DNA of 64,000 nt from Tupaia tana (Eukaryota; Chordata; Mammalia; Scandentia; Tupaiidae): the NCBI GenBank assembly GCA_026018925.1, contig JAKSZU010000131.1, forward strand, positions 124,001-188,000. Reading direction: 5' to 3'. The notes under the pieces are model-generated. The model saw only the letters and a program-made list of their open reading frames with translations, made no database searches and was not told the origin of the DNA. Of this stretch, positions 1-42,132 are shown one piece after another. Position 1 is the stretch's first letter. Every line of letters begins with the position of its first letter. A program made the position numbers and the translations under genes.

Positions 1-1087
1 CCTGTTCCCTGAAAAATCTAGTTCCCAGTAGCCATGAGGAGTCTGCTCAGAGAAGGGCTCAACTCTCCTGCCTGGGAGGAAGAAGCAGAAGGGATTATTA
101 ACAAAACAATAGGAGGAGCTGGGAGCCAGAGAAAAACTTTGCCTTTAAAAAAATCGTAAAAAGGAAAAATTACCAAAAAAAAAATGAGGAGACAGGAGCA
201 GAGAGAGACAGAGACCTCAGAGACACAGAGACAGAGATAGAAGGCCAGAAGGGCTCCCTACCACACTAGCTCTGCTTGCTGGAGACTGAATTATGAGTAG
301 AAAGTCTTCATTTCTCCTGTTCCCTGAAAAATCTAGTTCCCAGTAGCCATGAGGAGTCTGTTCAGAGAAGGGCTCAACTCTCCTGCCTGGGAGGAAGAAG
401 CAGAAGGGATTATTAACAAAACAATAGGAGGAGCTGGGAGCCAGAGAAAAACTTTGCCTTTAAAAAAAGTCGTAAAAAGAAAAAATTACCAAAAAAAAAA
501 TGAGGAGACAGGAGCAGAGAGAGACAGAGACCTCAGAGACAGAGAGACAGAGATAGAAGACCAGAGGGGCTCCCTACCACACTAGCTCTGCTTGCTGGAG
601 GCTGAATTATGAGTAGAGAATCTTCATTTCTCCTGTTCCATGAAAAATCTTGTTCACATTAACCATGAGGAGTCTGCTCAGAGAAGGGCTCAACTCTCCT
701 GCCTGGGAGGAAGAAGCAGAAGCTATTAATAACAAAACAATAGGAGGAGCTGGGAGCCAGAGAAAACCTTTGCCTTTAAAAAAGTCGTAAAAAGGAAAAA
801 TTACGAAAAAAAAAATGAGGAGACAGGAGCAGAGAGAGACAGAGACCTCAGAGACACAGAGACAGAGATAGAATGCCAGAGGGGCTCCCTACCACACTAG
901 CTCTGCTTGCTGGAGGCTGAATTATGAGTAGAAAATCTTCATTTCTCCTGTTCCCTGAAAAATCTAGTTCCCAGTAGCCATGAGGAGTCTGCTCAGAGAA
1001 GGGCTCAACTCTCCTGCCTGGGAGGAAGAAGCAGAAGGGATTATTAACAAAACAATAGGAGGAGCTGGGAGCCAGAGAAAAACTTTG

Positions 1088-1130
1088 CCTTTAAAAAAGT
1101 CGTAAAAAGGAAAAATTACCAAAAAAAAAA
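1088..1130 (+). other. A-rich hinge of the monomer with its single CpG (representative)
   Basis: The hinge runs TTTAAAAAAGTCGTAAAAAGG, then AAAAATTACC, then ten A. It is the most variable part of the monomer. A-run lengths differ from copy to copy. Subtypes carry CAAATAAAATAAAATGACG (e.g. 4898), ATAAAAATGAGG (1440), AAGAAAAAAAATGAGG (8056) or ATAAAATGAGG (9324). The CpG has decayed in some copies (TCATAAAA at 2047 and 7085, TTGTAAAA at 5829). It is also where the 1-kb insert entered one monomer. Confidence 0.85.
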
Positions 1131-1198
1131 TGAGGAGACAGGAGCAGAGAGAGACAGAGACCTCAGAGACACAGAGACAGAGATAGAAGGCAAGAGGG
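1131..1198 (+). repeat. Purine-rich GA tract with degenerate internal subrepeats (representative)
   Basis: From TGAGGAGACAGG to GATAGAAGGCAAGAGG the plus strand is almost all purine plus scattered C. It is built from short variants of GAGACAG: GAGACAGG, GAGAGACAGAGAC, CAGAGACACAG, AGACAGAG. Together with the A-rich hinge before it, this makes a plus-strand purine bias of roughly 110 bp in every monomer. Recurrent one-step variants (CACAGAGACAG against CAGAGAGACAG against CACAGAAACAG) mark monomer subtypes. Known property: long purine tracts can adopt triplex structures; whether this one does is not shown here. Confidence 0.8.
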
Positions 1199-1926
1199 GC
1201 TCCCTACCACACTAGCTCTGCTTGCTGGAGGCTGAATTATGAGTAGAAAATCTTCATTTCTCCTGTTCTCTGAAAAATCTAGTTCTCAGTAGCCATGAGG
1301 AGTCTGCTCAGAGAAGGGCTCAACTTTCCTGCCTGGGAGGAAGAAGCAGAAGGGATTATTAACAAAACAATAGGAGGAGCTAGGTGCCAGAGAAAAACTT
1401 TGCCTTTAAAAAAATCGTAAAAAGGAAAAATTACCAAAAATAAAAATGAGGAGACGGGAGCAGAGAGAGACAGAGACCTCAGAGACACAGAGAGAGAGAT
1501 AGAATGCCAGAGGGGCTCCCTACCACACTAGCTCTGCTTGCTGGAGGCTGAATTATGAGTAGAAAATCTTCATTTCTCCTGTTCCCTGAAAAATCTTGTT
1601 CCCAGTAGCCATGAGGAGTCTGCTCAGAGAAGGGCTCAACTCTCCTGCCTGGGAGGAAGAAGGAAAAGGGATTATTAACAAAACAATAGGAGGAGTTGGG
1701 AGCCAGAGAAAAACTTTGCCTTTAAAAAAGTCGTAAAAAGGAAAAATTACCAAAAAAAAAAATGAGGAGACAGGAGCAGAGAGAGATAGAGACCTCAGAG
1801 ACACAGAGACAGAGATAGAAGGCCAGAGGGTCTCCCTACCACATTAGCTCTGCTTGCTGGAGGCTGAATTATGAGTAGAAAATCTTCATTTCTCCTGTTC
1901 CCTGAAAAATCTAGTTCCCAGTAGCC

Positions 1927-2555
1927 ATGAGGAGTCTGCTCAGAGAAGGGCTCAACTCTCCTGCCTGGGAGGAAGAAGCAGAAGGGATTATTAACAAAAC
2001 AATAGGAGGAGCTGGGAGCCAGAGAAAAACTTTGCCTTTTAAAAATTCATAAAAAGGAAAAATTACCAAAAAAAAAATGAGGAGACAGGAGCAGAGAGAG
2101 ACAGAGACCTCAGAGACAGAGAGACAGAGATAGAAGGCCAGAGGGGCTCCCTACCACAGTAGCTCTGCTTGCTGGAGGCTGAATTATCAGTAGAAAATCT
2201 TCATTTCTCCTGTTCCCTGAAAAATCTAGTTCCCAGTAGCCATGAGGAGTCTGCTCAGAGAAGGGCTCAACTCTCCTGCCTGGGAGGAAGAAGCAGAAGG
2301 GATTATTAACAAAACAGTAGGAGGAGCTGGGAGCCACAGAAAAACTTTGCCTTTAAAAAAATCGTAAAAAGGAAAAAATTACCAAAAAAAATGAGGAGAC
2401 AGAAGCAGAGAGGGACAGAGACCTCAGAGACACAGAAACAGAGATAGAAGGCCAGAGGGGTTCCCTACCACACTAGCTCTGCTTGCTGGAGGCTGAATTA
2501 TGAGTAGAAAATCTTCATTTCTCCTGTTCCCTGAAAAATCTAGTTCACAGTAGCC
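1927..2555 (+). repeat. Two-monomer module (CAGAGAGACAG type then ACAGTAGG type), copy 1
   Basis: The first monomer ends in CTCAGAGACAGAGAGACAG with ACAGTAGCTC; the second opens after TTATCAG and carries ACAGTAGG, GAGCCACAG, GACAGAAGCAGAGAGGG. The pair recurs at 5393-6021 and 7280-7910 inside the same HOR and again in later copies, so it behaves as a module that was moved as a dimer. Confidence 0.83.
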
Positions 2556-3497
2556 ATGAGGAGTCTGCTCAGAGAAGGGCTCAACTCTCCTGCCTGGGAG
2601 GAAGAAGCAGAAGGGATTATTAACAAAACAATAGGATGAGCTGGGAGCCAGAGAAAAAATTTGCCTTTAAAAAAGTCGTAAAAAGGAAAAATTACCAAAA
2701 AAAAAATGAGGAGACAGGAGCAGAGAGAGACAGAGACCTCAGAATCACAGAGACAGAGATAGAAGGCTAGAGGGGCTCCCTGCCACACTAGCTCTGCTTG
2801 CTGGAGGCAGAATTATGAGTAGAAAATCTTCATTTCTCCTGTTCCCTGAAAAATCTAGTTCCCAGTAGCCATGAGGAGTCTGCTCAGAGAAGGGCTCAAC
2901 TCTCCTGCCTGGGAGGAAGAAGCAGAAGGGATTATTAACAAAACAATAGGAGGAGATGGGAGCCAGAGAAAAATTTGCCTTTAAAAAAATCGTATAAAGG
3001 AAAAATTACCAAAAAAAAATGAGGAGACAGGAGCAGAGAGAGACAGAGACCTCAGAGACACAGAGACAGATATAGAAGGCCAGAGGGGCTCCCTACCACA
3101 CTAGCTCTGCTTTCTGGAGGCTGAATTATGAGTAGAAAATCTTCATTTCTCCTGTTCCCTGAAAAATCTAGTTCCCAGTAGCCATGAGGAGTCTGCTCAG
3201 AAAAGGGTCAACTATCCTGCCAGGGAGGAAGAAGCAGAAGGGATTATTAACAAAACAATAGGAGGAGCTGGGAGCCAGAGAAAAACTTTGCCTTTAAAAA
3301 AATCGTAAAAAGGAAAAATTACCAAAAAAAAATTGAGGAGACAGGAGCAGAGAGAGTCAGAGACCTCAGAGACACAGAGGCAGAGATAGAAGACCAGAGG
3401 GGCTCCCTACCACACTAGCTCTGCTTGCTGGAGGCTGAATTATGAGTAGAGAATCTTCATTTCTCCTGTTCCATGAAAAATCTTGTTCACATTAACC

Positions 3498-4757
3498 ATG
3501 AGGAGTCTGCTCAGAGAAGGGCTCAACTCTCCTGCCTGGGAGGAAGAAGCAGAAGGGATTAATAACAAAACAATAGGAGGAGCTGGGAGCCAGAGAAAAC
3601 CTTTGCCTTTAAAAAAGTCGTAAAAAGGAAAAATTACGAAAAAAAAATGAGGAGACAGGAGCAGAGAGAGACAGAGACCTCAGAGACACAGAGACAGAGA
3701 TAGAATGCCAGAGGGGCTCCCTACCACACTAGCTCTGCTTGCTGGAGGCTGAATTATGAGTAGAAAATCTTCATTTCTCCTGTTCCCTGAAAAATCTAGT
3801 TCCCAGTAGCCATGAGGAGTCTGCTCAGAGAAGGGCTCAACTCTCCTGCCTGGGAGGAAGAAGCAGAAGGGATTATTAACAAAACAATAGGAGGAGCTGG
3901 GAGCCAGAGAAATACTTTGCCTTTAAAAAAGTCGTAAAAAGGAAAAATTACCAAAAAAAAAATGAGGAGACAGGAGCAGAGAGAGACAGAGACCTCAGAG
4001 ACACAGAGACAGAGATAGAAGGCAAGAGGGGCTCCCTACCACACTAGCTCTGCTTGCTGGAGGCTGAATTATGAGTAGAAAATCTTCATTTCTCCTGTTC
4101 TCTGAAAAATCTAGTTCTCAGTAGCCATGAGGAGTCTGCTCAGAGAAGGGCTCAACTTTCCTACCTGGGAGGAAGAAGCAGAAGGGATTATTAACAAAAC
4201 AATAGGAGGAGCTGGGTGCCAGAGAAAAACTTTGCCTTTAAAAAAATCGTAAAAAGGAAAAATTACCAAAAATAAAAATGAGGAGACGGGAGCAGAGAGA
4301 GACAGAGACCTCAGAGACACACAGAGAGAGATAGAATGCCAGAGGGGCTCCCTACCACACTAGCTCTGCTTGCTGGAGGCTGAATTATGAGTAGAAAATC
4401 TTCATTTCTCCTGTTCCCTGAAAAATCTTGTTCCCAGTAGCCATGAGGAGTCTGCTCAGAGAAGGGCTCAACTCTCCTGCCTGGGAGGAAGAAGGAAAAG
4501 GGATTATTAACAAAACAATAGGAGGAGCTGGGAGCCAGAGAAAAACTTTGCCTTTAAAAAAGTCGTAAAAAGGAAAAATTACCAAAAAAAAAATGAGGAG
4601 ACAGGAGCAGATAGAGACAGAGACCTCAGAGACACAGAGACAGAGATAGAAGGCCAGAGGGTCTCCCTACCACATTAGCTCTGCTTGCTGGAGGCTGAAT
4701 TATGAGTAGAAAATCTTCATTTCTCCTGTTCCCTGAAAAATCTAGTTCCCAGTAGCC
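3498..4757 (+). repeat. Second copy of the types 3-6 block (monomers 12-15)
   Basis: It is collinear with 665-1926 at +2,832. Private changes include ATACTTTGCC near 3912, TTTCCTACC near 4157 and GGGTGCC at 4215. Similarity starts before the first monomer, in the GAAGACCAGAGG stretch near 3390 (558 in the first copy), so the breakpoint lies inside a monomer. Confidence 0.85.
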
Positions 4758-5392
4758 ATGAGGAGTCTGCTCAGAGAAGTGCTCAACTCTCCTGCCTGGG
4801 AGGAAGAAGCAGAAGGGATTATTAACAAAACAATAGGAGGAGCTGGGAGCCAGAGAAAAACTTTGCCTTTAAAAAATCGTAAAAAGGAAAAATTATCAAA
4901 TAAAATAAAATGACGAGACAGGAGCAGAGTGAGACAGAGACCTCAGAGACACAGAAACAGAGATAGAAAGCCAGAGGGGCTCCCTACCACACTAGCTCTG
5001 CTTGCTGGAGGCTGAATTATGAGTAGAAAATCTTCATTTCTCCTGTTCCCTGAAAAATCTAGTTCCCAGTAGCCATGAAGAGTCTGCTCAGAGAAGGGCT
5101 CAACTCTCCTGCCTGGGAGGAAGAAGCAGAAGGGATTATTAACAAAACAATAGGAGGAGCTGGGAGCCAGAGAACAACTTTGCCTTTAAAAAAATCGTAT
5201 AAAGGAAAAATTACCAAAAAAAAAAAATGAGGAGACAGGAGCAGAGAGAAACAGAGACCTCAGAGACACAGAGACAGAGATAGAAGGCCAGAGGGGCTCC
5301 CTACCACACTAGCTCTGCTTGCTGGAGGCTGAATTATCAGTAGAAAATCTTCATTTCTCCTGTTCCCTGAAAAAATCTAGTTCCCAGTAGCC

Positions 5393-6021
5393 ATGAGGAG
5401 TCTGCTCAGAGAAGGGCTCAACTCTCCTGCCTGGGAGGAAGAAGCAGAAGGGATTATTAACAAAACAATAGGAGGAGCTGGGAGCCAGAGAAAAACTTTG
5501 CCTTTAAAAAAGTCGTAAAAAGGAAAAATTACCAAAAAAAAAAATGAGGAGACAGGAGCAGAGAGAGACAGAGACCTCAGAGACAGAGAGACAGAGATAG
5601 AAGGCCAGAGGGGCTCCCTACCACAGTAGTTCTGCTTGCTGGAGGCTGAATTATGAGTAGAAAATCTTCATTTCTCCTGTTCCCTGAAAAATCTAGTTCC
5701 CAGTAGCCATGAGGAGTCTGCTCAGAGAAGGGTTCAACTCTCCTGCCTGGGAGGAAGAAGCAGAAGGGATTATTAACAAAACAGTAGGAGGAGCTGGGAG
5801 CCATAGAAAAACTTTGCCTTTAAAAAAATTGTAAAATAAAAAATTACCAAAAAAAAATGAGGAGACAGAAGCAGAGAGGGACAGAGACATCAGAGACACA
5901 GAGACAGAGATAGAAGGCCAGAGGGGCTCCCTACCACACTAGCTCTGCTTGCTGGAGGCTGAATTATGAGTAGAAAATCTTCATTTCTCCTGTTCCCTGA
6001 AAAATCTAGTTCCCAGTAGCC
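5393..6021 (+). repeat. Two-monomer module, copy 2
   Basis: It has the same dimer order as 1927-2555. Private changes are ACAGTAGTTC, GAAGGGTTC, GAGCCATAG, TTGTAAAATAAAAAATTACC and GACATCAG. The TTGTAAAA is a decayed form of the hinge CpG. Confidence 0.82.
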
Positions 6022-7279
6022 ATGAGGAGTCTGCTCAGAGAAGGGCTCAACTCTCCTGCCTGGGAGGAAGAAGCAGAAGGGATTATTAACAAAACAATAG
6101 GAGGAGCTGGGAGCCAGAGAAAAACTGCCTTTAAAAAAGTCGTAAAATGGAAAAATTACCAAAAAAAAATGAGGAGACAGGAGCAAAGAGTGACAGAGAC
6201 CTCAGAGACACAGAGACAGAGATAGAAGGCCAGAGGGGCTCCCTACCACACTAGCTCTGCTTGCTGGAGGCTGAATTATGAGTAGAAAATCTTCATTTCT
6301 CCTGTTCCCTGAAAAATCTAGTTCCCAGTAGCCATGAGGTGTCTACTCAGAGAAGGGCTCAACTCTCCTGCATGGGAGGAAGAAGCAGAAGGGATTATTA
6401 ACAAAACAATAGGAGGAGCTGGGAGAAAGAGAAAAACTTTGCCTTTAAAAAAGTCGTAAAAAGGAAAAATTACCAAAAAAAAAAAGAGGAGACAGGAGCA
6501 GAGAGAGACAGAGACCTCAGAGACACAGAAACAGAGATAGAAAGCCAGAGGGGCTCCCTACCACACTAGCTCTGCTTGCTGGAGGCTGAATTATGAGTAG
6601 AAAATCTTCATTTCTCCTGTTCCCTGAAAAATCTAGTTCCCAGTAGCCATGAGGAGTCTGCTCAGAGAAGGGCTCAACTCTCCTGCCTGGGAGGAAGAAG
6701 CAGAAGGGATTATTAACAAAACAATAGGAGGAGCTGGGAGCCAGAGAAAAACTTTGCCCTTTAAAAAAATCGTAAAAAGGAAAAATTACCAAAAAAAAAA
6801 TGAGGAGACAGGAGCAGAGAGAGACAGAGACCTCAGAGACACAGAGACAGAGATAGAAGGCCAGAAGGGCTCCCTACCACACTAGCTCTGCTTGCTGGAG
6901 GCTGAATTATGAGTAGAAAATCTTCATTTCTCCTGTTCCCTGAAAAATCTAGATCTCAGTAGCCATGAGGAGTCTCCTCAGAGAAGGGCTCAACTCTCTG
7001 CCTGGGAGGAAGAAGCAGAAGGGATTATTAACAAAACAATAGGAGGAGCTGGGAGCCAGAGAAAAAACTTTGCCTTTAAAAAAGTCATAAAAAGGAAAAA
7101 TTACCAAAAAGAAAATGAGGAGACAGGAGCAGAGAGAGACAGAGACCTCAGAGACACAGAGACAGAGATAGAAGGCCAGAGGGGCTCCCTACCACACTAG
7201 CTCTGCTTGCTGGAGGCTGAATTATGAGTAGAAAATCTTCATTTCTCCTGTTCCCTGAAAAATCTAGTTCCCAGTAGCC

Positions 7280-7910
7280 ATGAGGAGTCTGCTCAGAGAA
7301 GGGCTCAACTCTCCTGCCTGGGAGGAAGAAGCAGAAGGGATTATTAACAAAACAATAGGAGGAGCTGGGAGCCAGAGAAAAACTTTTGCCTTTAAAAAGT
7401 CGTAAAAAGGAAAAATTACCAAAAAAAAAAATGAGGAGACAGGAGCAGAGAGAGACAGAGACCTCAGAGACAGAGAGACAGAGATAGAAGGCCAGAGGGG
7501 CTCCCTACCACAGTAGCTCTGCTTGCTGGAGGCTGAATTATCAGTAGAAAATCTTCATTTCTCCTGTTCCCTGAAAAATCTAGTTCCCAGTAGCCATGAG
7601 GAGTCTGCTCAGAGAAGGGCTCAACTCTCCTGCCTGGGAGGAAGAAGCAGAAGGGATTATTAACAAAACAGTAGGAGGAGCTGGGAGCCACAGAAAAACT
7701 TTGCCTTTAAAAAAATCGTTAAAAAGGAAAAAATTACCAAAAAAAATGAGGAGACAGAAGCAGAGAGGGACAGAGACCTCAGAGACACAGAAACAGAGAT
7801 AGAAGGCCAGAGGGGCTCCCTACCACACTAGCTCTGCTTGCTGGAGGCTGAATTATGAGTAGAAAATCTTCATTTCTCCTGTTCCCTGAAAAATCTAGTT
7901 CACAGTAGCC
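7280..7910 (+). repeat. Two-monomer module, copy 3
   Basis: It has the same dimer order as 1927-2555 and sits 5,353-5,354 bp (17 monomers) after it. The TTCACAGTAG / GGATGAGC monomer follows in both places (2556 and 7911), so the shared run is really three monomers long. Confidence 0.82.
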
Positions 7911-8228
7911 ATGAGGAGTCTGCTCAGAGAAGGGGCTCAACTCTCCTGCCTGGGAGGAAGAAGCAGAAGGGATTATTAACAAAACAATAGGATGAGCTGG
8001 GAGCCAGAGAAAAAATTTGCCTTTAAAAAGTCGTAAAAAGGAAAAATTACCAAAAGAAAAAAAATGAGGAGACAGGAGCAGAGAGAGACAGAGACCTCAG
8101 AGACACAGAGACAGAGATAGAAGTCCAGAGGGGCTCCCTGCCACACTAGCTCTGCTTGCTGGAGGCAGAATTATGAGTAGAAAATCTTCATTTCTCCTGT
8201 TCCCTGAAAAATCTAGTTCCCAGTAGCC

Positions 8229-9172
8229 ATGAGGAGTCTGCTCAGAGAAGGGCTCAACTCTCCTGCCTGGGAGGAAGAAGCAGAAGGGATTATTAACAAA
8301 ACAATAGGAGGAGCTGGGAGCCAGAGAAAAACTTTGCCTTTAAAAAAGTCGTAAAAAGGAAAAATTACCAAAAAAAAATGAGGAGACAGGAGCAGAGAGA
8401 GACAGAGACCTCAGAGACACAGAGACAGAGATAGAAGGCAAGAGGGGCTCCCTACCACACTAGCTCTGCTTGCTGGAGGCTGAATTATGAGTAGAAAATC
8501 TTCATTTCTCCTGTTCCCTGAAAAATCTAGTTCTCAGTAGCCATGAGGAGTCTGCTCAGAGAAGGGCTCAACTTTCCTGCCTGGGAGGAAGAAGCAGAAG
8601 GGATTATTAACAAACAATAGGAGGAGCTGGGTGCCAGAGAAAAACTTTGCCTTTAAAAAAATCGTATAAAAGGAAAAATTACCAAAAATAAAAATGAGGA
8701 GACGGGAGCAGAGAGAGACAGAGACCTCAGAGACACAGAGAGAGAGATAGAATGCCAGAGGGGCTCCCTACCACACTAGCTCTGCTTGCTGGAGGCTGAA
8801 TTATGAGTAGAAAATCTTCATTTCTCCTGTTCCCTGAAAAATCTTGTTCCCAGTAGCCATGAGGAGTCTGCTCAGAGAAGGGCTCAACTCTCCTGCCTGG
8901 GAGGAAGAGGAAAAGGGATTATTAACAAAAAAATAGGAGGAGCTGGGAGCCAGAGAAAAACTTTGCCTTAAAAAAGTCGTAAAAAGGAAAAATTACCAAA
9001 AAAAAAAATGAGGAGACAGGAGCAGAGAGAGACAGAGACCTCAGAGACACAGAGACAGAGATAGAAGGCCAGAGGGTCTCCCTACCACATTAGCTCTGCT
9101 TGCTGGAGGCTGAATTTTGAGTAGAAAATCTTCATTTCTCCTGTTCCCTGAAAAATCTAGTTCCCAGTAGCC
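8229..9172 (+). repeat. Third copy of part of the block (monomers 27-29)
   Basis: Three monomers carry GCAAGAGG, GTTCTCAG/GGGTGCC/GACGGGAG and CTTGTTCCC/GGAAAAGGG, in the same order as 980-1926 and 3812-4757. They sit 4,416-4,417 bp (14 monomers) after the latter. Private variants include AACAAACAATAGG near 8609 and CAAAAAAATAGG near 8927. Confidence 0.83.
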
Positions 9173-9493
9173 ATGAGGAGTCTGCTCAGAGAAGGGCTCA
9201 ACTCTCCTGCCTGGGAGGAAGAAGCAGAAGGGATTATTAACAAAACAATAGGAGGAGCTGGGAGCCAGAGAAAAAACTTTGCCTTTAAAAAAATCGTAAG
9301 AAGGAAAAATTACCAAAAAAAAAATAAAATGAGGAGACAGGAGCAGAGAGAGACAGAGACCTCAGAGACACAGAGACAGAGATAGAAGGCCAGAGGAGAT
9401 CCCTACCACACTAGCTCTGCTTGCTGGAGGCTGAATTATGAGTAGAAAATCTTCATTTCTCCTGTTCCCTGAAAAATCTAGTTCCCAGTAGCC

Positions 9494-12400
9494 ATGAGGA
9501 GTCTGCTCAGAGAAGGGCTCAACTCTCCTGCCTGGGAGGAAGAAGCAGAAGGGATTATTAACAAAACAATAGGAGGAGCTGGGAGCCAGAGAAAAACTTT
9601 GCCTTTAAAAAAATCGTAAAAAGGAAAAATTACCAAAAAAAAAATGAGGAGACAGGAGCAGAGAGAGACAGAGACCTCAGAGACACAGAGACAGAGATAG
9701 AAGGCCAGAAGGGCTCCCTACCACACTAGCTCTGCTTGCTGGAGGCTGAATTATGAGTAGAAAGTCTTCATTTCTCCTGTTCCCTGAAAAATCTAGTTCC
9801 CAGTAGCCATGAGGAGTCTGTTCAGAGAAGGGCTCAACTCTCCTGCCTGGGAGGAAGAAGCAGAAGGGATTATTAACAAAACAATAGGAGGAGCTGGGAG
9901 CCAGAGAAAAACTTTGCCTTTAAAAAAGTCGTAAAAAGAAAAAATTACCAAAAAAAAAATGAGGAGACAGGAGCAGAGAGAGACAGAGACCTCAGAGACA
10001 GAGAGACAGAGATAGAAGACCAGAGGGGCTCCCTACCACACTAGCTCTGCTTGCTGGAGGCTGAATTATGAGTAGAGAATCTTCATTTCTCCTGTTCCAT
10101 GAAAAATCTTGTTCACATTAACCATGAGGAGTCTGCTCAGAGAAGGGCTCAACTCTCCTGCCTGGGAGGAAGAAGCAGAAGCTATTAATAACAAAACAAT
10201 AGGAGGAGCTGGGAGCCAGAGAAAACCTTTGCCTTTAAAAAAGTCGTAAAAAGGAAAAATTACGAAAAAAAAAATGAGGAGACAGGAGCAGAGAGAGACA
10301 GAGACCTCAGAGACACAGAGACAGAGATAGAATGCCAGAGGGGCTCCCTACCACACTAGCTCTGCTTGCTGGAGGCTGAATTATGAGTAGAAAATCTTCA
10401 TTTCTCCTGTTCCCTGAAAAATCTAGTTCCCAGTAGCCATGAGGAGTCTGCTCAGAGAAGGGCTCAACTCTCCTGCCTGGGAGGAAGAAGCAGAAGGGAT
10501 TATTAACAAAACAATAGGAGGAGCTGGGAGCCAGAGAAAAACTTTGCCTTTAAAAAAGTCGTAAAAAGGAAAAATTACCAAAAAAAAAATGAGGAGACAG
10601 GAGCAGAGAGAGACAGAGACCTCAGAGACACAGAGACAGAGATAGAAGGCAAGAGGGGCTCCCTACCACACTAGCTCTGCTTGCTGGAGGCTGAATTATG
10701 AGTAGAAAATCTTCATTTCTCCTGTTCTCTGAAAAATCTAGTTCTCAGTAGCCATGAGGAGTCTGCTCAGAGAAGGGCTCAACTTTCCTGCCTGGGAGGA
10801 AGAAGCAGAAGGGATTATTAACAAAACAATAGGAGGAGCTAGGTGCCAGAGAAAAACTTTGCCTTTAAAAAAATCGTAAAAAGGAAAAATTACCAAAAAT
10901 AAAAATGAGGAGACGGGAGCAGAGAGAGACAGAGACCTCAGAGACACAGAGAGAGAGATAGAATGCCAGAGGGGCTCCCTACCACACTAGCTCTGCTTGC
11001 TGGAGGCTGAATTATGAGTAGAAAATCTTCATTTCTCCTGTTCCCTGAAAAATCTTGTTCCCAGTAGCCATGAGGAGTCTGCTCAGAGAAGGGCTCAACT
11101 CTCCTGCCTGGGAGGAAGAAGGAAAAGGGATTATTAACAAAACAATAGGAGGAGTTGGGAGCCAGAGAAAAAACTTTGCCTTTAAAAAAGTCGTAAAAAG
11201 GAAAAATTACCAAAAAAAAAAATGAGGAGACAGGAGCAGAGAGAGATAGAGACCTCAGAGACACAGAGACAGAGATAGAAGGCCAGAGGGTCTCCCTACC
11301 ACATTAGCTCTGCTTGCTGGAGGCTGAATTATGAGTAGAAAATCTTCATTTCTCCTGTTCCCTGAAAAATCTAGTTCCCAGTAGCCATGAGGAGTCTGCT
11401 CAGAGAAGGGCTCAACTCTCCTGCCTGGGAGGAAGAAGCAGAAGGGATTATTAACAAAACAATAGGAGGAGCTGGGAGCCAGAGAAAAACTTTGCCTTTT
11501 AAAAATTCATAAAAGGAAAAATTACCAAAAAAAAAATGAGGAGACAGGAGCAGAGAGAGACAGAGACCTCAGAGACAGAGAGACAGAGATAGAAGGCCAG
11601 AGGGGCTCCCTACCACAGTAGCTCTGCTTGCTGGAGGCTGAATTATCAGTAGAAAATCTTCATTTCTCCTGTTCCCTGAAAAATCTAGTTCCCAGTAGCC
11701 ATGAGGAGTCTGCTCAGAGAAGGGCTCAACTCTCCTGCCTGGGAGGAAGAAGCAGAAGGGATTATTAACAAAACAGTAGGAGGAGCTGGGAGCCACAGAA
11801 AAACTTTGCCTTTAAAAAAATCGTAAAAAGGAAAAAATTACCAAAAAAAATGAGGAGACAGAAGCAGAGAGGGACAGAGACCTCAGAGACACAGAAACAG
11901 AGATAGAAGGCCAGAGGGGTTCCCTACCACACTAGCTCTGCTTGCTGGAGGCTGAATTATGAGTAGAAAATCTTCATTTCTCCTGTTCCCTGAAAAATCT
12001 AGTTCACAGTAGCCATGAGGAGTCTGCTCAGAGAAGGGCTCAACTCTCCTGCCTGGGAGGAAGAAGCAGAAGGGATTATTAACAAAACAATAGGATGAGC
12101 TGGGAGCCAGAGAAAAAATTTGCCTTTAAAAAAGTCGTAAAAAGGAAAAATTACCAAAAAAAAAATGAGGAGACAGGAGCAGAGAGAGACAGAGACCTCA
12201 GAATCACAGAGACAGAGATAGAAGGCTAGAGGGGCTCCCTGCCACACTAGCTCTGCTTGCTGGAGGCAGAATTATGAGTAGAAAATCTTCATTTCTCCTG
12301 TTCCCTGAAAAATCTAGTTCCCAGTAGCCATGAGGAGTCTGCTCAGAGAAGGGCTCAACTCTCCTGCCTGGGAGGAAGAAGCAGAAGGGATTATTAACAA

Positions 12401-18400: not shown

Positions 18401-18948
18401 GGAGCCAGAGAAAAACTTTGCCTTTAAAAAAGTCGTAAAAAGGAAAAATTACCAAAAAAAAAAATGAGGAGACAGGAGCAGAGAGAGACAGAGACCTCAG
18501 AGACACAGAGACAGAGATAGAAGGCCAGAGGGTCTCCCTACCACATTAGCTCTGCTTGCTGGAGGCTGAATTATGAGTAGAAAATCTTCATTTCTCCTGT
18601 TCCCTGAAAAATCTAGTTCCCAGTAGCCATGAGGAGTCTGCTCAGAGAAGGGCTCAACTCTCCTGCCTGGGAGGAAGAAGCAGAAGGGATTATTAACAAA
18701 ACAATAGGAGGAGCTGGGAGCCAGAGAAAAACTTTGCCTTTAAAAAAATCGTAAGAAGGAAAAATTACCAAAAAAAAAATAAAATGAGGAGACAGGAGCA
18801 GAGAGAGACAGAGACCTCAGAGACACAGAGACAGAGATAGAAGGCCAGAGGAGATCCCTACCACACTAGCTCTGCTTGCTGGAGGCTGAATTATGAGTAG
18901 AAAATCTTCATTTCTCCTGTTCCCTGAAAAATCTAGTTCCCAGTAGCC
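9494..18948 (+). repeat. Higher-order repeat copy B (30 monomers, 9,455 bp)
   Basis: This is the second full copy of the 30-monomer unit, in the same order as 34-9493. Most differences I noted from copy A are single-base homopolymer changes: the hinge A-run at 461 against 9921, ATAAAAAGG at 2049 against ATAAAAGG at 11509, CTGAAAAAATC at 5369 against one A fewer at 14827. A few are substitutions: GAGAGAGACAG near 6501 against GAGAGACACAG near 15956, and TTGCTGG near 6884 against TGGCTGG near 16345. The copy ends with the GTAAGAAGG / GAGGAGATCCC monomer (18629), the same monomer that ends copy A (9173). Confidence 0.92.
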
Positions 18949-20532
18949 ATGAGGAGTCTGCTCAGAGAAGGGCTCAACTCTCCTGCCTGGGAGGAAGAAG
19001 CAGAAGGGATTATTAACAAAACAATAGGAGGAGCTGGGAGCCAGAGAAAAACTTTGCCTTTAAAAAATCGTAAAAAGGAAAAATTATCAAATAAAATAAA
19101 ATGACGAGACAGGAGCAGAGTGAGACAGAGACCTCAGAGACACAGAAACAGAGATAGAAAGCCAGAGGGGCTCCCTACCACACTAGCTCTGCTTGCTGGA
19201 GGCTGAATTATGAGTAGAAAATCTTCATTTCTCCTGTTCCCTGAAAAATCTAGTTCCCAGTAGCCATGAAGAGTCTGCTCAGAGAAGGGCTCAACTCTCC
19301 TGCCTGGGAGGAAGAAGCAGAAGGGATTATTAACAAAACAATAGGGAGGGAGCTGGGAGCCAGAGAACAAATTTGCCTTTAAAAAAATCGTATAAAGGAA
19401 AAATTACCAAAAAAAAAAAATGAGGAGACAGGAGCAGAGAGAAACAGAGACCTCAGAGACACAGAGACAGAGATAGAAGGCCAGAGGGGCTCCCTACCAC
19501 ACTAGCTCTGCTTGCTGGAGGCTGAATTATCAGTAGAAAATCTTCATTTCTCCTGTTCCCTGAAAAATTTAGTTCCCAGTAGCCATGAGGAGTCTGCTCA
19601 GAGAAGGGCTCAACTCTCCTGCCTGGGAGGAAGAAGCAGAATGGATTATTAACAAAACAATAGGAGGAGCTGGGAGCCAGAGAAAAACTTTGCCTTTAAA
19701 AAAGTCGTAAAAAGGAAAAATTACCAAAAATAAAAATGAGGAGACAGGAGCAGAGAGAGACAGAGACCTCAGAGACAGAGAGACAGAGATAGAAGGCCAG
19801 AGGGGCTCCCTACCACAGTAGCTCTGCTTGCTGGAGGCTGAATTATGAGTAGAAAATCTTCATTTCTCCTGTTCCCTGAAAAATCTAGTTCCCAGTAGCC
19901 ATGAGGAGTCTGCTCAGAGAAGGGCTCAACTCTCCTGCCTGGGAGGAAGAAGCAGAAGGGATTATTAACAAAACAGTAGGAGGAGCTGGGAGCCACAGAA
20001 AAACTTTGCCTTTAAAAAAATCGTAAAATAAAAAATTACCAAAAAAAAAATGAGGAGACAGAAGCAGAGAGGACAGAGACATCAGAGACACAGAGACAGA
20101 GATAGAAGGCCAGAGGGGCTCCCTACCACACTAGCTCTGCTTGCTGGAGGCTGAATTATGAGTAGAAAATCTTCATTTCTCCTGTTCCCTGAAAAATCTA
20201 GTTCCCAGTAGCCATGAGGAGTCTGCTCAGAGAAGAGCTCAACTCTCCTGCCTGGGAGGAAGAAGCAGAAGGGATTATTAACAAAACAATAGGAGGAGCT
20301 GGGAGCCAGAGAAAAACTTTGTCTTTAAAAAAGTCGTAAAAAGGAAAAATTACCAAAAATAAAAAAAATGAGGAGACAGGAGCAGAGAGAGACAGAGACC
20401 TCAGAAACACAGAGACAGTGATAGAAGGCCAGAGGGGCTCCCTACCACACTAGCTCTGCTTGCTGGAGGCAGAATTATGAGTAGAAAATCTTCATTTCTC
20501 CTGTTCCCTGAAAAATCTAGTTCCCAGTAGCC
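18949..20532 (+). repeat. Five-monomer cassette opening HOR copy C
   Basis: This five-monomer stretch of 1,584 bp has the subtype order: CAAATAAAATAAAATGACG monomer (as at 4758); ATGAAGAG plus GAGAACAAATTTG (as at 5075); TTATCAG plus AGAATGG and CAAAAATAAAAATG (related to 5393); ACAGTAGG plus GAGAGGACAGAGACATC (as at 5709); and a new type with GAAGAGCTC, TTTGTCTTT and ACAGTGATAG. It stands where copies A and B carry the CTGTTCAG, TTCACATTAACC, GCAAGAGG and GTTCTCAG types. The next 30-monomer period (28417) opens with the same cassette. Confidence 0.88.
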
Positions 20533-23500
20533 ATGAGGAGTCTGCTCAGAGAAGGGCTCAACTCTCCTGCCTGGGAGGAAGAAGGAAAAGGGATTATTAA
20601 CAAAACAATAGGAGGAGTTGGGAGCCAGAGAAAAACTTTGCCTTTAAAAAAGTCGTAAAAAGGAAAAATTACCAAAAAAAAAAATGAGGAGACAGGAGCA
20701 GAGAGAGATAGAGACCTCAGAGACACAGAGACAGAGATAGAAGGCCAGAGGGTCTCCCTACCACATTAGCTCTGCTTGCTGGAGGCTGAATTATGAGTAG
20801 AAAATCTTCATTTCTCCTGTTCCCTGAAAAATCTAGTTCCCAGTAGCCATGAGGAGTCTGCTCAGAGAAGGGCTCAACTCTCCTGCCTGGGAGGAAGAAG
20901 CAGAAGGGATTATTAACAAAACAATAGGAGGAGCTGGGAGCCAGAGAAAAACTTTGCCTTTTAAAAATTCATAAAAAGGAAAAATTACCAAAAAAAAAAA
21001 TGAGGAGACAGGAGCAGAGAGAGACAGAGACCTCAGAGACAGAGAGACAGAGATAGAAGGCCAGAGGGGCTCCCTACCACAGTAGCTCTGCTTGCTGGAG
21101 GCTGAATTATCAGTAGAAAATCTTCATTTCTCCTGTTCCCTGAAAAATCTAGTTCCCAGTAGCCATGAGGAGTCTGCTCAGAGAAGGGCTCAACTCTCCT
21201 GCCTGGGAGGAAGAAGCAGAAGGGATTATTAACAAAACAGTAGGAGGAGCTGGGAGCCACAGAAAAACTTTGCCTTTAAAAAAATCGTAAAAAGGAAAAA
21301 ATTACCAAAAAAAATGAGGAGACAGAAGCAGAGAGGGACAGAGACCTCAGAGACACAGAAACAGAGATAGAAGGCCAGAGGGGTTCCCTACCACACTAGC
21401 TCTGCTTGCTGGAGGCTGAATTATGAGTAGAAAATCTTCATTTCTCCTGTTCCCTGAAAAATCTAGTTCACAGTAGCCATGAGGAGTCTGCTCAGAGAAG
21501 GGCTCAACTCTCCTGCCTGGGAGGAAGAAGCAGAAGGGATTATTAACAAAACAATAGGATGAGCTGGGAGCCAGAGAAAAAATTTGCCTTTAAAAAAGTC
21601 GTAAAAAGGAAAAATTACCAAAAAAAAAATGAGGAGACAGGAGCAGAGAGAGACAGAGACCTCAGAATCACAGAGACAGAGATAGAAGGCTAGAGGGGCT
21701 CCCTGCCACACTAGCTCTGCTTGCTGGAGGCAGAATTATGAGTAGAAAATCTTCATTTCTCCTGTTCCCTGAAAAATCTAGTTCCCAGTAGCCATGAGGA
21801 GTCTGCTCAGAGAAGGGCTCAACTCTCCTGCCTGGGAGGAAGAAGCAGAAGGGATTATTAACAAAACAATAGGAGGAGATGGGAGCCAGAGAAAAATTTG
21901 CCTTTAAAAAAATCGTATAAAGGAAAAATTACCAAAAAAAAATGAGGAGACAGGAGCAGAGAGAGACAGAGACCTCAGAGACACAGAGACAGATATAGAA
22001 GGCCAGAGGGGCTCCCTACCACACTAGCTCTGCTTTCTGGAGGCTGAATTATGAGTAGAAAATCTTCATTTCTCCTGTTCCCTGAAAAATCTAGTTCCCA
22101 GTAGCCATGAGGAGTCTGCTCAGAAAAGGGTCAACTATCCTGCCAGGGAGGAAGAAGCAGAAGGGATTATTAACAAAACAATAGGAGGAGCTGGGAGCCA
22201 GAGAAAAACTTTGCCTTTAAAAAAATCGTAAAAAGGAAAAATTACCAAAAAAAAATTGAGGAGACAGGAGCAGAGAGAGTCAGAGACCTCAGAGACACAG
22301 AGGCAGAGATAGAAGACCAGAGGGGCTCCCTACCACACTAGCTCTGCTTGCTGGAGGCTGAATTATGAGTAGAGAATCTTCATTTCTCCTGTTCCATGAA
22401 AAATCTTGTTCACATTAACCATGAGGAGTCTGCTCAGAGAAGGGCTCAACTCTCCTGCCTGGGAGGAAGAAGCAGAAGGGATTAATAACAAAACAATAGG
22501 AGGAGCTGGGAGCCAGAGAAAACCTTTGCCTTTAAAAAAGTCGTAAAAAGGAAAAAATTACGAAAAAAAAATGAGGAGACAGGAGCAGAGAGAGACAGAG
22601 ACCTCAGAGACACAGAGACAGAGATAGAATGCCAGAGGGGCTCCCTACCACACTAGCTCTGCTTGCTGGAGGCTGAATTATGAGTAGAAAATCTTCATTT
22701 CTCCTGTTCCCTGAAAAATCTAGTTCCCAGTAGCCATGAGGAGTCTGCTCAGAGAAGGGCTCAACTCTCCTGCCTGGGAGGAAGAAGCAGAAGGGATTAT
22801 TAACAAAACAATAGGAGGAGCTGGGAGCCAGAGAAATACTTTGCCTTTAAAAAAGTCGTAAAAAGGAAAAATTACCAAAAAAAAAATGAGGGAGACAGGA
22901 GCAGAGAGAGACAGAGACCTCAGAGACACAGAGACAGAGATAGAAGGCAAGAGGGGCTCCCTACCACACTAGCTCTGCTTGCTGGAGGCTGAATTATGAG
23001 TAGAAAATCTTCATTTCTCCTGTTCTCTGAAAAATCTAGTTCTCAGTAGCCATGAGGAGTCTGCTCAGAGAAGGGCTCAACTTTCCTACCTGGGAGGAAG
23101 AAGCAGAAGGGATTATTAACAAAACAATAGGAGGAGCTGGGTGCCAGAGAAAAACTTTGCCTTTAAAAAAATCGTAAAAAGGAAAAATTACCAAAAATAA
23201 AAATGAGGAGACGGGAGCAGAGAGAGACAGAGACCTCAGAGACACACAGAGAGAGATAGAATGCCAGAGGGGCTCCCTACCACACTAGCTCTGCTTGCTG
23301 GAGGCTGAATTATGAGTAGAAAATCTTCATTTCTCCTGTTCCCTGAAAAATCTTGTTCCCAGTAGCCATGAGGAGTCTGCTCAGAGAAGGGCTCAACTCT
23401 CCTGCCTGGGAGGAAGAAGGAAAAGGGATTATTAACAAAACAATAGGAGGAGCTGGGAGCCAGAGAAAAACTTTGCCTTTAAAAAAGTCGTAAAAAGGAA

Positions 23501-26500
23501 AAATTACCAAAAAAAAAATGAGGAGACAGGAGCAGATAGAGACAGAGACCTCAGAGACACAGAGACAGAGATAGAAGGCCAGAGGGTCTCCCTACCACAT
23601 TAGCTCTGCTTGCTGGAGGCTGAATTATGAGTAGAAAATCTTCATTTCTCCTGTTCCCTGAAAAATCTAGTTCCCAGTAGCCATGAGGAGTCTGCTCAGA
23701 GAAGTGCTCAACTCTCCTGCCTGGGAGGAAGAAGCAGAAGGGATTATTAACAAAACAATAGGAGGAGCTGGGAGCCAGAGAAAAACTTTGCCTTTAAAAA
23801 ATCGTAAAAAGGAAAAATTATCAAATAAAATAAAATGACGAGACAGGAGCAGAGTGAGACAGAGACCTCAGAGACACAGAAACAGAGATAGAAAGCCAGA
23901 GGGGCTCCCTACCACACTAGCTCTGCTTGCTGGAGGCTGAATTATGAGTAGAAAATCTTCATTTCTCCTGTTCCCTGAAAAATCTAGTTCCCAGTAGCCA
24001 TGAAGAGTCTGCTCAGAGAAGGGCTCAACTCTCCTGCCTGGGAGGAAGAAGCAGAAGGGATTATTAACAAAACAATAGGAGGAGCTGGGAGCCAGAGAAC
24101 AACTTTGCCTTTAAAAAAATCGTATAAAGGAAAAATTACCAAAAAAAAAAAATGAGGAGACAGGAGCAGAGAGAAACAGAGACCTCAGAGACACAGAGAC
24201 AGAGATAGAAGGCCAGAGGGGCTCCCTACCACACTAGCTCTGCTTGCTGGAGGCTGAATTATCAGTAGAAAATCTTCATTTCTCCTGTTCCCTGAAAAAT
24301 CTAGTTCCCAGTAGCCATGAGGAGTCTGCTCAGAGAAGGGCTCAACTCTCCTGCCTGGGAGGAAGAAGCAGAAGGGATTATTAACAAAACAATAGGAGGA
24401 GCTGGGAGCCAGAGAAAAACTTTGCCTTTAAAAAAGTCGTAAAAAGGAAAAATTACCAAAAAAAAAAATGAGGAGACAGGAGCAGAGAGAGACAGAGACC
24501 TCAGAGACAGAGAGACAGAGATAGAAGGCCAGAGGGGCTCCCTACCACAGTAGTTCTGCTTGCTGGAGGCTGAATTATGAGTAGAAAATCTTCATTTCTC
24601 CTGTTCCCTGAAAAATCTAGTTCCCAGTAGCCATGAGGAGTCTGCTCAGAGAAGGGTTCAACTCTCCTGCCTGGGAGGAAGAAGCAGAAGGGATTATTAA
24701 CAAAACAGTAGGAGGAGCTGGGAGCCATAGAAAAACTTTGCCTTTAAAAAAATTGTAAAATAAAAAATTACCAAAAAAAAATGAGGAGACAGAAGCAGAG
24801 AGGGACAGAGACATCAGAGACACAGAGACAGAGATAGAAGGCCAGAGGGGCTCCCTACCACACTAGCTCTGCTTGCTGGAGGCTGAATTATGAGTAGAAA
24901 ATCTTCATTTCTCCTGTTCCCTGAAAAATCTAGTTCCCAGTAGCCATGAGGAGTCTGCTCAGAGAAGGGCTCAACTCTCCTGCCTGGGAGGAAGAAGCAG
25001 AAGGGATTATTAACAAAACAATAGGAGGAGCTGGGAGCCAGAGAAAAACTGCCTTTAAAAAAGTCGTAAAATGGAAAAATTACCAAAAAAAAATGAGGAG
25101 ACAGGAGCAAAGAGTGACAGAGACCTCAGAGACACAGAGACAGAGATAGAAGGCCAGAGGGGCTCCCTACCACACTAGCTCTGCTTGCTGGAGGCTGAAT
25201 TATGAGTAGAAAATCTTCATTTCTCCTGTTCCCTGAAAAATCTAGTTCCCAGTAGCCATGAGGTGTCTACTCAGAGAAGGGCTCAACTCTCCTGCATGGG
25301 AGGAAGAAGCAGAAGGGATTATTAACAAAACAATAGGAGGAGCTGGGAGAAAGAGAAAAACTTTGCCTTTAAAAAAGTCGTAAAAAGGAAAAATTACCAA
25401 AAAAAAAAGAGGAGACAGGAGCAGAGAGACACAGAGACCTCAGAGACACAGAAACAGAGATAGAAAGCCAGAGGGGCTCCCTACCACACTAGCTCTGCTT
25501 GCTGGAGGCTGAATTATGAGTAGAAAATCTTCATTTCTCCTGTTCCCTGAAAAATCTAGTTCCCAGTAGCCATGAGGAGTCTGCTCAGAGAAGGGCTCAA
25601 CTCTCCTGCCTGGGAGGAAGAAGCAGAAGGGATTATTAACAAAACAATAGGAGGAGCTGGGAGCCAGAGAAAAACTTTGCCTTTAAAAAAATCGTAAAAA
25701 GGAAAAATTACCAAAAAAAAAATGAGGAGACAGGAGCAGAGAGAGACAGAGACCTCAGAGACACAGAGACAGAGATAGAAGGCCAGAAGGGCTCCCTACC
25801 ACACTAGCTCTGCTGGCTGGAGGCTGAATTATGAGTAGAAAATCTTCATTTCTCCTGTTCCCTGAAAAATCTAGATCTCAGTAGCCATGAGGAGTCTCCT
25901 CAGAGAAGGGCTCAACTCTCCTGCCTGGGAGGAAGAAGCAGAAGGGATTATTAACAAAACAATAGGAGGAGCTGGGAGCCAGAGAAAAACTTTGCCTTTA
26001 AAAAAGTCATAAAAAGGAAAAATTACCAAAAAAGAAAATGAGGAGACAGGAGCAGAGAGAGACAGAGACCTCAGAGACACAGAGACAGAGATAGAAGGCC
26101 AGAGGGGCTCCCTACCACACTAGCTCTGCTTGCTGGAGGCTGAATTATGAGTAGAAAATCTTCATTTCTCCTGTTCCCTGAAAAATCTAGTTCCCAGTAG
26201 CCATGAGGAGTCTGCTCAGAGAAGGGCTCAACTCTCCTGCCTGGGAGGAAGAAGCAGAAGGGATTATTAACAAAACAATAGGAGGAGCTGGGAGCCAGAG
26301 AAAAACTTTGCCTTTAAAAAAGTCGTAAAAAGGAAAAATTACCAAAAAAAAAAATGAGGAGACAGGAGCAGAGAGAGACAGAGACCTCAGAGACAGAGAG
26401 ACAGAGATAGAAGGCCAGAGGGGCTCCCTACCACAGTAGCTCTGCTTGCTGGAGGCTGAATTATCAGTAGAAAATCTTCATTTCTCCTGTTCCCTGAAAA

Positions 26501-28416
26501 ATCTAGTTCCCAGTAGCCATGAGGAGTCTGCTCAGAGAAGGGCTCAACTCTCCTGCCTGGGAGGAAGAAGCAGAAGGGATTATTAACAAAACAGTAGGAG
26601 GAGCTGGGAGCCACAGAAAAACTTTGCCTTTAAAAAAATCGTAAAAAGGAAAAAATTACCAAAAAAAATGAGGAGACAGAAGCAGAGAGGGACAGAGACC
26701 TCAGAGACACAGAAACAGAGATAGAAGGCCAGAGGGGCTCCCTACCACACTAGCTCTGCTTGCTGGAGGCTGAATTATGAGTAGAAAATCTTCATTTCTC
26801 CTGTTCCCTGAAAAATCTAGTTCACAGTAGCCATGAGGAGTCTGCTCAGAGAAGGGCTCAACTCTCCTGCCTGGGAGGAAGAAGCAGAAGGGATTATTAA
26901 CAAAACAATAGGATGAGCTGGGAGCCAGAGAAAAAATTTGCCTTTAAAAAAGTCGTAAAAAGGAAAAATTACCAAAAGAAAAAAAATGAGGAGACAGGAG
27001 CAGAGAGAGACAGAGACCTCAGAGACACAGAGACAGAGATAGAAGTCCAGAGGGGCTCCCTGCCACACTAGCTCTGCTTGCTGGAGGCAGAATTATGAGT
27101 AGAAAATCTTCATTTCTCCTGTTCCCTGAAAAATCTAGTTCCCAGTAGCCATGAGGAGTCTGCTCAGAGAAGGGCTCAACTCTCCTGCCTGGGAGGAAGA
27201 AGCAGAAGGGATTATTAACAAAACAATAGGAGGAGCTGGGAGCCAGAGAAAAACTTTGCCTTTAAAAAAGTCGTAAAAAGGAAAAATTACCAAAAAAAAA
27301 ATGAGGAGACAGGAGCAGAGAGAGACAGAGACCTCAGAGACACAGAGACAGAGATAGAAGGCAAGAGGGGCTCCCTACCACACTAGCTCTGCTTGCTGGA
27401 GGCTGAATTATGAGTAGAAAATCTTCATTTCTCCTGTTCCCTGAAAAATCTAGTTCTCAGTAGCCATGAGGAGTCTGCTCAGAGAAGGGCTCAACTTTCC
27501 TGCCTGGGAGGAAGAAGCAGAAGGGATTATTAACAAACAATAGGAGGAGCTGGGTGCCAGAGAAAAACTTTGCCTTTAAAAAAATCGTAAAAAGGAAAAA
27601 TTACCAAAAATAAAAATGAGGAGACGGGAGCAGAGAGAGACAGAGACCTCAGAGACACAGAGAGAGAGATAGAATGCCAGAGGGGCTCCCTACCACACTA
27701 GCTCTGCTTGCTGGAGGCTGAATTATGAGTAGAAAATCTTCATTTCTCCTGTTCCCTGAAAAATCTTGTTCCCAGTAGCCATGAGGAGTCTGCTCAGAGA
27801 AGGGCTCAACTCTCCTGCCTGGGAGGAAGAAGGAAAAGGGATTATTAACAAAAAAATAGGAGGAGCTGGGAGCCAGAGAAAAACTTTGCCTTTAAAAAAG
27901 TCGTAAAAAGGAAAAATTACCAAAAAAAAAAATGAGGAGACAGGAGCAGAGAGAGACAGAGACCTCAGAGACACAGAGACAGAGATAGAAGGCCAGAGGG
28001 TCTCCCTACCACATTAGCTCTGCTTGCTGGAGGCTGAATTATGAGTAGAAAATCTTCATTTCTCCTGTTCCCTGAAAAATCTAGTTCCCAGTAGCCATGA
28101 GGAGTCTGCTCAGAGAAGGGCTCAACTCTCCTGCCTGGGAGGAAGAAGCAGAAGGGATTATTAACAAAACAATAGGAGGAGCTGGGAGCCAGAGAAAAAC
28201 TTTGCCTTTAAAAAAATCGTAAGAAGGAAAAATTACCAAAAAAAAAATAAAATGAGGAGACAGGAGCAGAGAGAGACAGAGACCTCAGAGACACAGAGAC
28301 AGAGATAGAAGGCCAGAGGAGATCCCTACCACACTAGCTCTGCTTGCTGGAGGCTGAATTATGAGTAGAAAATCTTCATTTCTCCTGTTCCCTGAAAAAT
28401 CTAGTTCCCAGTAGCC
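18949..28416 (+). repeat. Higher-order repeat copy C (30 monomers, 9,468 bp; first five swapped)
   Basis: From 20533 to 28416 the copy follows monomers 6-30 of copies A and B at offsets of 9,464-9,468 from B. The first five monomers (18949-20532) do not match monomers 1-5 of A or B, but resemble monomers 16-19 plus a novel subtype. Total monomer number stays at 30, so the exchange kept register. Odd single-base insertions in G runs (AGGGAGGGAG near 19345; ATGAGGGAGAC near 22889) are absent from sister copies and may be assembly errors. Confidence 0.91.
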
Positions 28417-29998
28417 ATGAGGAGTCTGCTCAGAGAAGGGCTCAACTCTCCTGCCTGGGAGGAAGAAGCAGAAGGGATTATTAACAAAACAATAGGAGGA
28501 GCTGGGAGCCAGAGAAAAACTTTGCCTTTAAAAAATCGTAAAAAGGAAAAATTATCAAATAAAATAAAATGACGAGACAGGAGCAGAGTGAGACAGAGAC
28601 CTCAGAGACACAGAAACAGAGATAGAAAGCCAGAGGGGCTCCCTACCACACTAGCTCTGCTTGCTGGAGGCTGAATTATGAGTAGAAAATCTTCATTTCT
28701 CCTGTTCCCTGAAAAATCTAGTTCCCAGTAGCCATGAAGAGTCTGCTCAGAGAAGGGCTCAACTCTCCTGCCTGGGAGGAAGAAGCAGAAGGGATTATTA
28801 ACAAAACAATAGGAGGAGCTGGGAGCCAGAGAACAAATTTGCCTTTAAAAAAATCGTATAAAGGAAAAATTACCAAAAAAAAAAAATGAGGAGACAGGAG
28901 CAGAGAGAAACAGAGACCTCAGAGACACAGAGACAGAGATAGAAGGCCAGAGGGGCTCCCTACCACACTAGCTCTGCTTGCTGGAGGCTGAATTATCAGT
29001 AGAAAATCTTCATTTCTCCTGTTCCCTGAAAAATTTAGTTCCCAGTAGCCATGAGGAGTCTGCTCAGAGAAGGGCTCAACTCTCCTGCCTGGGAGGAAGA
29101 AGCAGAATGGATTATTAACAAAACAATAGGAGGAGCTGGGAGCCAGAGAAAAACTTTGCCTTTAAAAAAGTCGTAAAAAGGAAAAATTACCAAAAATAAA
29201 AATGAGGAGACAGGAGCAGAGAGAGACAGAGACCTCAGAGACAGAGAGACAGAGATAGAAGGCCAGAGGGGCTCCCTACCACAGTAGCTCTGCTTGCTGG
29301 AGGCTGAATTATGAGTAGAAAATCTTCATTTCTCCTGTTCCCTGAAAAATCTAGTTCCCAGTAGCCATGAGGAGTCTGCTCAGAGAAGGGCTCAACTCTC
29401 CTGCCTGGGAGGAAGAAGCAGAAGGGATTATTAACAAAACAGTAGGAGGAGCTGGGAGCCACAGAAAAACTTTGCCTTTAAAAAAATCGTAAAATAAAAA
29501 ATTACCAAAAAAAAAATGAGGAGACAGAAGCAGAGAGGACAGAGACATCAGAGACACAGAGACAGAGATAGAAGGCCAGAGGGGCTCCCTACCACACTAG
29601 CTCTGCTTGCTGGAGGCTGAATTATGAGTAGAAAATCTTCATTTCTCCTGTTCCCTGAAAAATCTAGTTCCCAGTAGCCATGAGGAGTCTGCTCAGAGAA
29701 GAGCTCAACTCTCCTGCCTGGGAGGAAGAAGCAGAAGGGATTATTAACAAAACAATAGGAGGAGCTGGGAGCCAGAGAAAAACTTTGTCTTTAAAAAAGT
29801 CGTAAAAAGGAAAAATTACCAAAAATAAAAAAAATGAGGAGACAGGAGCAGAGAGAGACAGAGACCTCAGAAACACAGAGACAGTGATAGAAGGCCAGAG
29901 GGGCTCCCTACCACACTAGCTCTGCTTGCTGGAGGCAGAATTATGAGTAGAAAATCTTCATTTCTCCTGTTCCCTGAAAAATCTAGTTCCCAGTAGCC
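28417..29998 (+). repeat. Second copy of the five-monomer cassette
   Basis: It matches 18949-20532 at an offset of 9,466-9,468, including GAGAACAAATTTG, AGAATGGATT, GAGAGGACAG, GAAGAGCTC, TTTGTCTTT and ACAGTGATAG. It lacks the extra G bases seen near 19345. After it the array leaves the 30-monomer order: monomer 6 type is not next; a GAGATGGGTGCC monomer is. Confidence 0.9.
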
Positions 29999-34105: not shown

Positions 34106-34426
34106 ATGAGGAGTCTGCTCAGAGAAGGGCTCAACTCTCCTGCCTGGGAGGAAGAAGCAGAAGGGATTATTAACAAAACAATAGGAGGAGCTGGGAGCCA
34201 GAGAAAAACTTTGCCTTTAAAAAAATCGTAAGAAGGAAAAATTACCAAAAAAAAAAATAAAATGAGGAGACAGGAGCAGAGAGAGACAGAGACCTCAGAG
34301 ACACAGAGACAGAGATAGAAGGCCAGAGGAGATCCCTACCACACTAGCTCTGCTTGCTGGAGGCTGAATTATGAGTAGAAAATCTTCATTTCTCCTGTTC
34401 CCTGAAAAATCTAGTTCCCAGTAGCC

Positions 34427-42016: not shown

Positions 42017-42132
42017 ATGAGGTGTCTTCTCAGAGAAGGGCTCAACTCTCCTGCATGGGAGGAAGAAGCAGAAGGGATTATTAACAAAACAATAGGAGGA
42101 GCTGGGAGAAAGAGAAAAACTTTGCCTTTAAA
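42017..42132 (+). repeat. Left half of the monomer split by the insert (copy 1)
   Basis: It carries the subtype marks ATGAGGTGTCT, CTCCTGCATGGG and GGGAGAAAGAG, known from 6334, 15790 and 38852, and breaks off at GCCTTTAAA. Its right half resumes at 43134. Confidence 0.9.

Follow-up and report, generated by a model that had tools for sequence, protein, structure and literature searches.

The window (the whole 64,000-bp stretch of DNA that was analysed) is filled from one end to the other by a single satellite array, in which 315-bp monomers follow each other head to tail (period 315, 202.4 copies by Tandem Repeats Finder) and which is interrupted by two copies of a ~1-kb insert; all features described below lie on the + strand. 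Stepwise alignment split the array into 202 segments, numbered m0 to m201, of which 190 well-formed monomers (308-322 bp) were retained, the 12 segments left out being poorly aligned pieces in or beside the two inserts. Across all 17,955 pairs of retained monomers, the median edit distance is 14. The satellite has a G+C content of 44.8% and carries about one CpG per monomer, within an ATCG/GTCG motif. For the window as a whole, 238 CpG dinucleotides were observed against 3,018 expected (8%), and this depletion, taken together with the poly-A end of the insert, suggests a methylated vertebrate genome, probably that of a mammal. Neither subrepeats nor large inverted repeats were found in the consensus monomer, and a half-length repeat is likewise absent from it, the best circular shift reaching an identity of 0.36.

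What kind of satellite is this? Alpha satellite was rejected on the basis of the period (315 versus ~171 bp) and the lack of a half-length repeat. One 315-bp satellite was met in literature text searches, namely SSUsat of the clam Spisula subtruncata (PMC5537241), the published G+C content of which is also similar (44.05% versus 44.8% here); a phrase search missed the very paper describing it, so that these searches do not demonstrate absence of a match. All sequenced SSUsat monomers are described as carrying a TaqI site, whereas TCGA occurs 0 times in the 64,000-bp window, and both published primers have 0 matches in the window at ≤3 mismatches; identity with SSUsat was therefore rejected on the TaqI and primer sites. 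SSUsat further differs in that its description reports no higher-order repeat (HOR). The centromeric satellites of lemurs (PMC13228423) resemble the present one as mammalian non-alpha satellites with HORs, but their monomers, of 41 to 548 bp, are set apart from it by their description rather than by sequence, the figure "315" being absent from the main text of that paper. The satellite monomer found no match among plasmid records, nor did an exact satellite probe among viral and prokaryote contigs, collections that by their scope say little about a eukaryotic satellite.

The first-pass annotation had proposed a 30-monomer HOR in which adjacent monomers differ while copies recur at offsets of 9,455-9,468 bp, and this organisation is confirmed by edit distances. 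Among all well-formed monomers, neighbours (lag 1) differ by a median of 14 edits and 0 of 187 such pairs lie at ≤3 edits, whereas at lag 30 the first 90 monomers show a median of 0 edits, with 55 of 60 pairs at ≤3 edits, and at lag 60 the same holds for 25 of 30 pairs. When the comparison is extended to m0-m94, ≤3 edits are seen in 60 of 65 lag-30 pairs and in 0 of 94 lag-1 pairs, against 78 of 4,360 pairs at lags that are not multiples of 30. The mean lag-30 distance over m0-m94 is 1.6 edits, compared with a mean of 13.2 and a minimum of 11.7 in 1,000 shuffles of monomer order. The period offsets read from the measured monomer starts are 9,460 (m0 to m30), 9,455 (m30 to m60) and 9,468 (m60 to m90), exactly the range proposed. 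The array is thus a HOR in the general sense of the term, its multimers being far more alike than neighbouring monomers in the monomer-level comparison that had been suggested with the original claim. Its extent, first placed at 28416, is greater: the period goes on to 29,965, spanning 1-29,965, and the satellite itself fills the whole window. About 3.2 periods (m0-m94) are contained in the window, one of them a variant, and the array may extend past the left edge.

The anatomy of the units also modifies the initial count of three 30-monomer copies. Unit 1 (m0-m29, 1-9460), the start of which lies at the window edge or upstream of it, matches unit 2 (m30-m59, 9461-18915) in 30 of 30 monomers, and both are assigned to type alpha; unit 3 (m60-m89, 18916-28383; type beta) has 25 monomers in common with units 1 and 2, so that copies 1 and 2 stand as described whereas copy 3 matches at only 25 of 30 places. 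The difference is confined to a five-monomer block, m60-64 (18916-20499), which stands in unit 3 in place of m0-4/m30-34 and accounts for the five lag-30 failures (m30-34 versus m60-64, 10-17 edits). A second copy of this block opens the fourth period as m90-94 (28384-29965), with 0 substitutions in 1,582 bases. Grouping of monomers by single linkage at ≤3 edits gave 51 groups, in terms of which units 1 and 2 bear the identical 30 labels in the same order, while unit 3 bears the last 25 of these preceded by the block 11-12-19-20-21. The 30 places of the unit are filled by 19 groups (the 19 monomer types counted in unit 2), some of them repeatedly, the run 3-4-5, for example, occurring three times. 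Within unit 2, monomers differ by a median of 14 edits in ~315, or about 4.4%.

How does such a unit compare with HORs already described? As in alpha-satellite HORs (PMC12385485, PMC11276891), units are far less diverged than monomers, and the likeness to primate alpha satellite drawn in the first-pass annotation holds to this extent. It does not extend to the monomers, since those of one alpha-satellite unit are given as 20-40% apart and monomers <5% apart count as one type (PMC12385485), whereas here they are ~4.4% apart and 19 types are distributed, with repeats, over 30 places, unlike in a Willard's-type HOR. The recurrence of monomer types within a unit rather resembles the cascading HORs described in the same two sources (PMC11276891, PMC12385485). 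The 315-bp monomer is, moreover, of a length unrelated to that of alpha satellite, and about three units are seen. Longer units are in print, with 52 monomers in human (PMC12385485) and 59 in orangutan (PMC11276891), and lemur units reach up to 35 monomers (R1L35 of the black and white ruffed lemur; PMC13228423). Of the 171 species with Sanger data surveyed by Melters and colleagues, 76 had clear HORs (PMC4053949), which makes the earlier remark that HORs are less often described in other lineages too strong; the organisation is the same as here, but the animal and plant HORs of that survey are mostly dimers and trimers, read length being limiting. In rodents, HORs seldom define centromeres according to a preprint (PMC11230421). 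A 30-monomer HOR as such is ordinary, a known kind of structure, and what distinguishes the present one is the low divergence between its monomers together with its legible junctions.

Active alpha-satellite arrays typically have HORs (PMC12385485, PMC13228423), which raises the question of whether the array forms a functional centromere core, its HOR being maintained because kinetochore chromatin assembles there. The best match to a CENP-B box in the consensus covers 11 of 17 positions, within the range of 9-12 given by 20 shuffles, so that a CENP-B-box satellite was rejected; many centromeric satellites, however, lack this box. A centromeric or pericentromeric role of the array is possible, while maintenance of the HOR by kinetochore chromatin appears doubtful as an account of its structure.

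The copies of the 30-monomer unit are nearly free of substitutions. Over 9,447 aligned bases, units 1 and 2 show 4 substitutions and 21 indels, 18 of these indels consisting of A or T; the comparison of m5-29 with m65-89 yields 4 substitutions over 7,874 aligned bases; and m35-64 differs from m65-94 by 1 substitution and 9 indels in 9,460 aligned bases, the sole substitution falling in the junction monomer m65 considered below. By contrast, m0-4 and m60-64 are separated by 47 substitutions in 1,568 (about 3%). These values bear on the notion that the copies are old and have been kept alike by gene conversion instead of having arisen as new duplications, a notion to which the occurrence of monomer types at many places (type 12 in 12 of 190 monomers, type 6 in 13 of 190) would lend itself. 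Nevertheless, near-zero substitution over whole 9.46-kb units, ending in a sharp jump to ~3% (m0-4 versus m60-64), is more simply explained by one duplication tract than by many short conversions, and conversion as the main cause seems improbable.

The same near-identity could equally be produced by false duplication or by an assembler join, in which case the unit would be genuine but its three copies and the chimeric junction would stem from graph traversal or a mis-join. In keeping with such an artefact, copy 1 contains 15 private one-base indels between 6,475 and 9,271 that are absent from copies 2 and 3, and the rare indels are concentrated in m21-29, resembling consensus error. This cluster is probably an assembly consensus error, and, taken as such, implies that the copy number may be wrong. 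There is also a precedent in the 33-mer HOR of human chromosome 21, which is present in hg38 but missing from the complete assembly T2T-CHM13 (PMC12385485). Against an artefact speak the whole five-monomer block that separates units 1 and 2 from unit 3, the substitutions at 6,507, 6,893 and 9,117 that are private to unit 1, and the recurrence of the order 18-11-12-19-20-21-22 in the right copy of a larger repeat; we consequently regard an error in number as unlikely, though less so than upkeep by conversion.

This larger repeat comprises a left copy (m69-121, 21761-38504) and a right copy (m154-198, 48719-62932), which lie 24-27 kb apart. The right copy is 8 monomers shorter; 8 monomers are accordingly without a partner, and of the 45 aligned pairs 44 lie at ≤4 edits and one at 16. 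Three stretches of the alignment gave 11 substitutions in 3,773, 8 in 4,422 and 11 in 4,429 bases, in total 30 in 12,624 aligned bases. With 0.18-0.29% substitutions between its copies, versus 0.01-0.05% between those of the HOR, the larger repeat would be the older structure and the 30-monomer unit the later one. The neutral rate in mammals is ~2.2 substitutions per billion sites and year. If a mammalian rate is assumed, 4 substitutions in 9,447 bases would translate into about 0.1 million years and the divergence of the larger repeat into about half a million, both of these being rough figures. Judged from the sequence, the low divergence among monomers is itself a sign of the youth of the HOR.

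What do the junctions reveal about how these blocks arose? The HOR junctions contain no partial monomers, and monomer length is kept across them (190 monomers at 308-322 bp), which indicates that the exchanges were in register. If the 30-monomer unit came from exchange between mispaired monomers, its junction monomer would be expected to resemble m95 at the 5' end and m35 at the 3' end. This monomer, m65 (20500-20815), can indeed be read as the 5' part of m95 joined to the 3' part of m35, the switch from one parent to the other falling between columns 21 and 87 of the alignment. As an m95/m35 chimera it has 0 mismatches, a fit reached by 0 of 121 control pairs of equal spacing; m65 differs from m35 alone by just 1 mismatch, however, so that the case for a chimera rests on one diagnostic site. 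Since m65 shares its base at this site, A, with most monomers (166 of 190), a back mutation or conversion would suffice to explain it. The case is stronger for m184 (58188-58501), which stands where the right copy of the larger repeat has lost five monomers. Compared with m102 alone it has 4 mismatches and with m107 alone 6, but with a chimera of the two it has 0, a fit that 0 of 173 controls reach. Perfect chimeras were thus obtained in 2 of seven junction trials. In the remaining trials, m199 had 2 mismatches as an m122/m123 chimera (1 of 184 controls as good) and 9 as an m122/m127 chimera (64 of 174 as good), m200 had 4 as an m123/m128 chimera (8 of 174 as good), m166 had 1 as an m81/m83 chimera (4 of 181 controls), as it likewise has to m83 alone, and m153 had 4 as an m131/m68 chimera (1 of 119 as good).

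The repeats, the in-register junctions, the near-zero divergence and the chimeric fit of m65 and m184 are best accommodated, with a probability that we put at roughly 60%, by a young array within a long satellite, in which blocks were duplicated by in-register unequal exchange or equivalent copying. Blocks of many monomers would have been duplicated by recombination between monomers paired in register but out of place, be it through unequal exchange between sister chromatids or homologues or through break-induced copying, which would have the same outcome. An older round would have produced the repeat copies some 24-27 kb apart. In a later round, a monomer of the m35 kind would have paired out of place with a monomer like m95, which lay 30 units further downstream than its proper partner, and the change-over at this pairing would have left the chimeric m65 and created the 30-monomer unit. 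We infer unequal exchange as the process, this order of events and the recent date.

It is conceivable, at somewhat less than even odds, that the birth of a HOR has been caught here, with the founding exchange still readable in m65 and lying inside an older repeat that bears the mark of the same process (m184). If so, one could date the seed event and localise it within a monomer to ~66 columns, whereas HOR structure in satellites is usually deduced from old, much-reworked arrays. Single exchanges are traceable because the monomers are only ~4.4% apart and the copies are near-identical, and, should reads confirm the copies, the locus would provide a clean test case for models of unequal exchange.

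A further duplication sits between the two copies of the larger repeat. At 41026-46503, a 3.2-kb segment is tandemly duplicated with an offset of 3,214, its copies differing solely by one- or two-base A/T indels; each includes the non-satellite insert, which has a poly-A end and lies inside a monomer (42131-43140 and 45345-46350, the limits being approximate, where satellite alignment fails). The insert copies show 0 substitutions in 1,004 aligned bases, and 0 in 2,262 when the left satellite flank is included. Similarity between insert and satellite was rejected, as there were A-rich matches only (E at least 0.27). No clean target-site duplication was apparent by eye beyond a few A, and the insert had no match among phage records. 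As to a coding origin, Pfam returned 0 families for 7 stretches from the 37 listed open frames; an Rfam search confined to 40,000-49,000 gave 5 matches, at E 0.44-0.83 and far below gathering score, which were taken as chance. The insert has 5 CpG against 28 expected, and its halves are 72.8% identical over 125 bp, so that it may consist of two related elements, or of one with an internal repeat.

A separate observation concerns monomer position 153, at which 97 of the 190 monomers have A and 88 have G. Along m0-132 (1-41983) the two bases switch 87 times, against a mean of 70.6 (sd 5.4) in shuffles, which hints at an older two-monomer tendency, a signal inflated by the repeated units.
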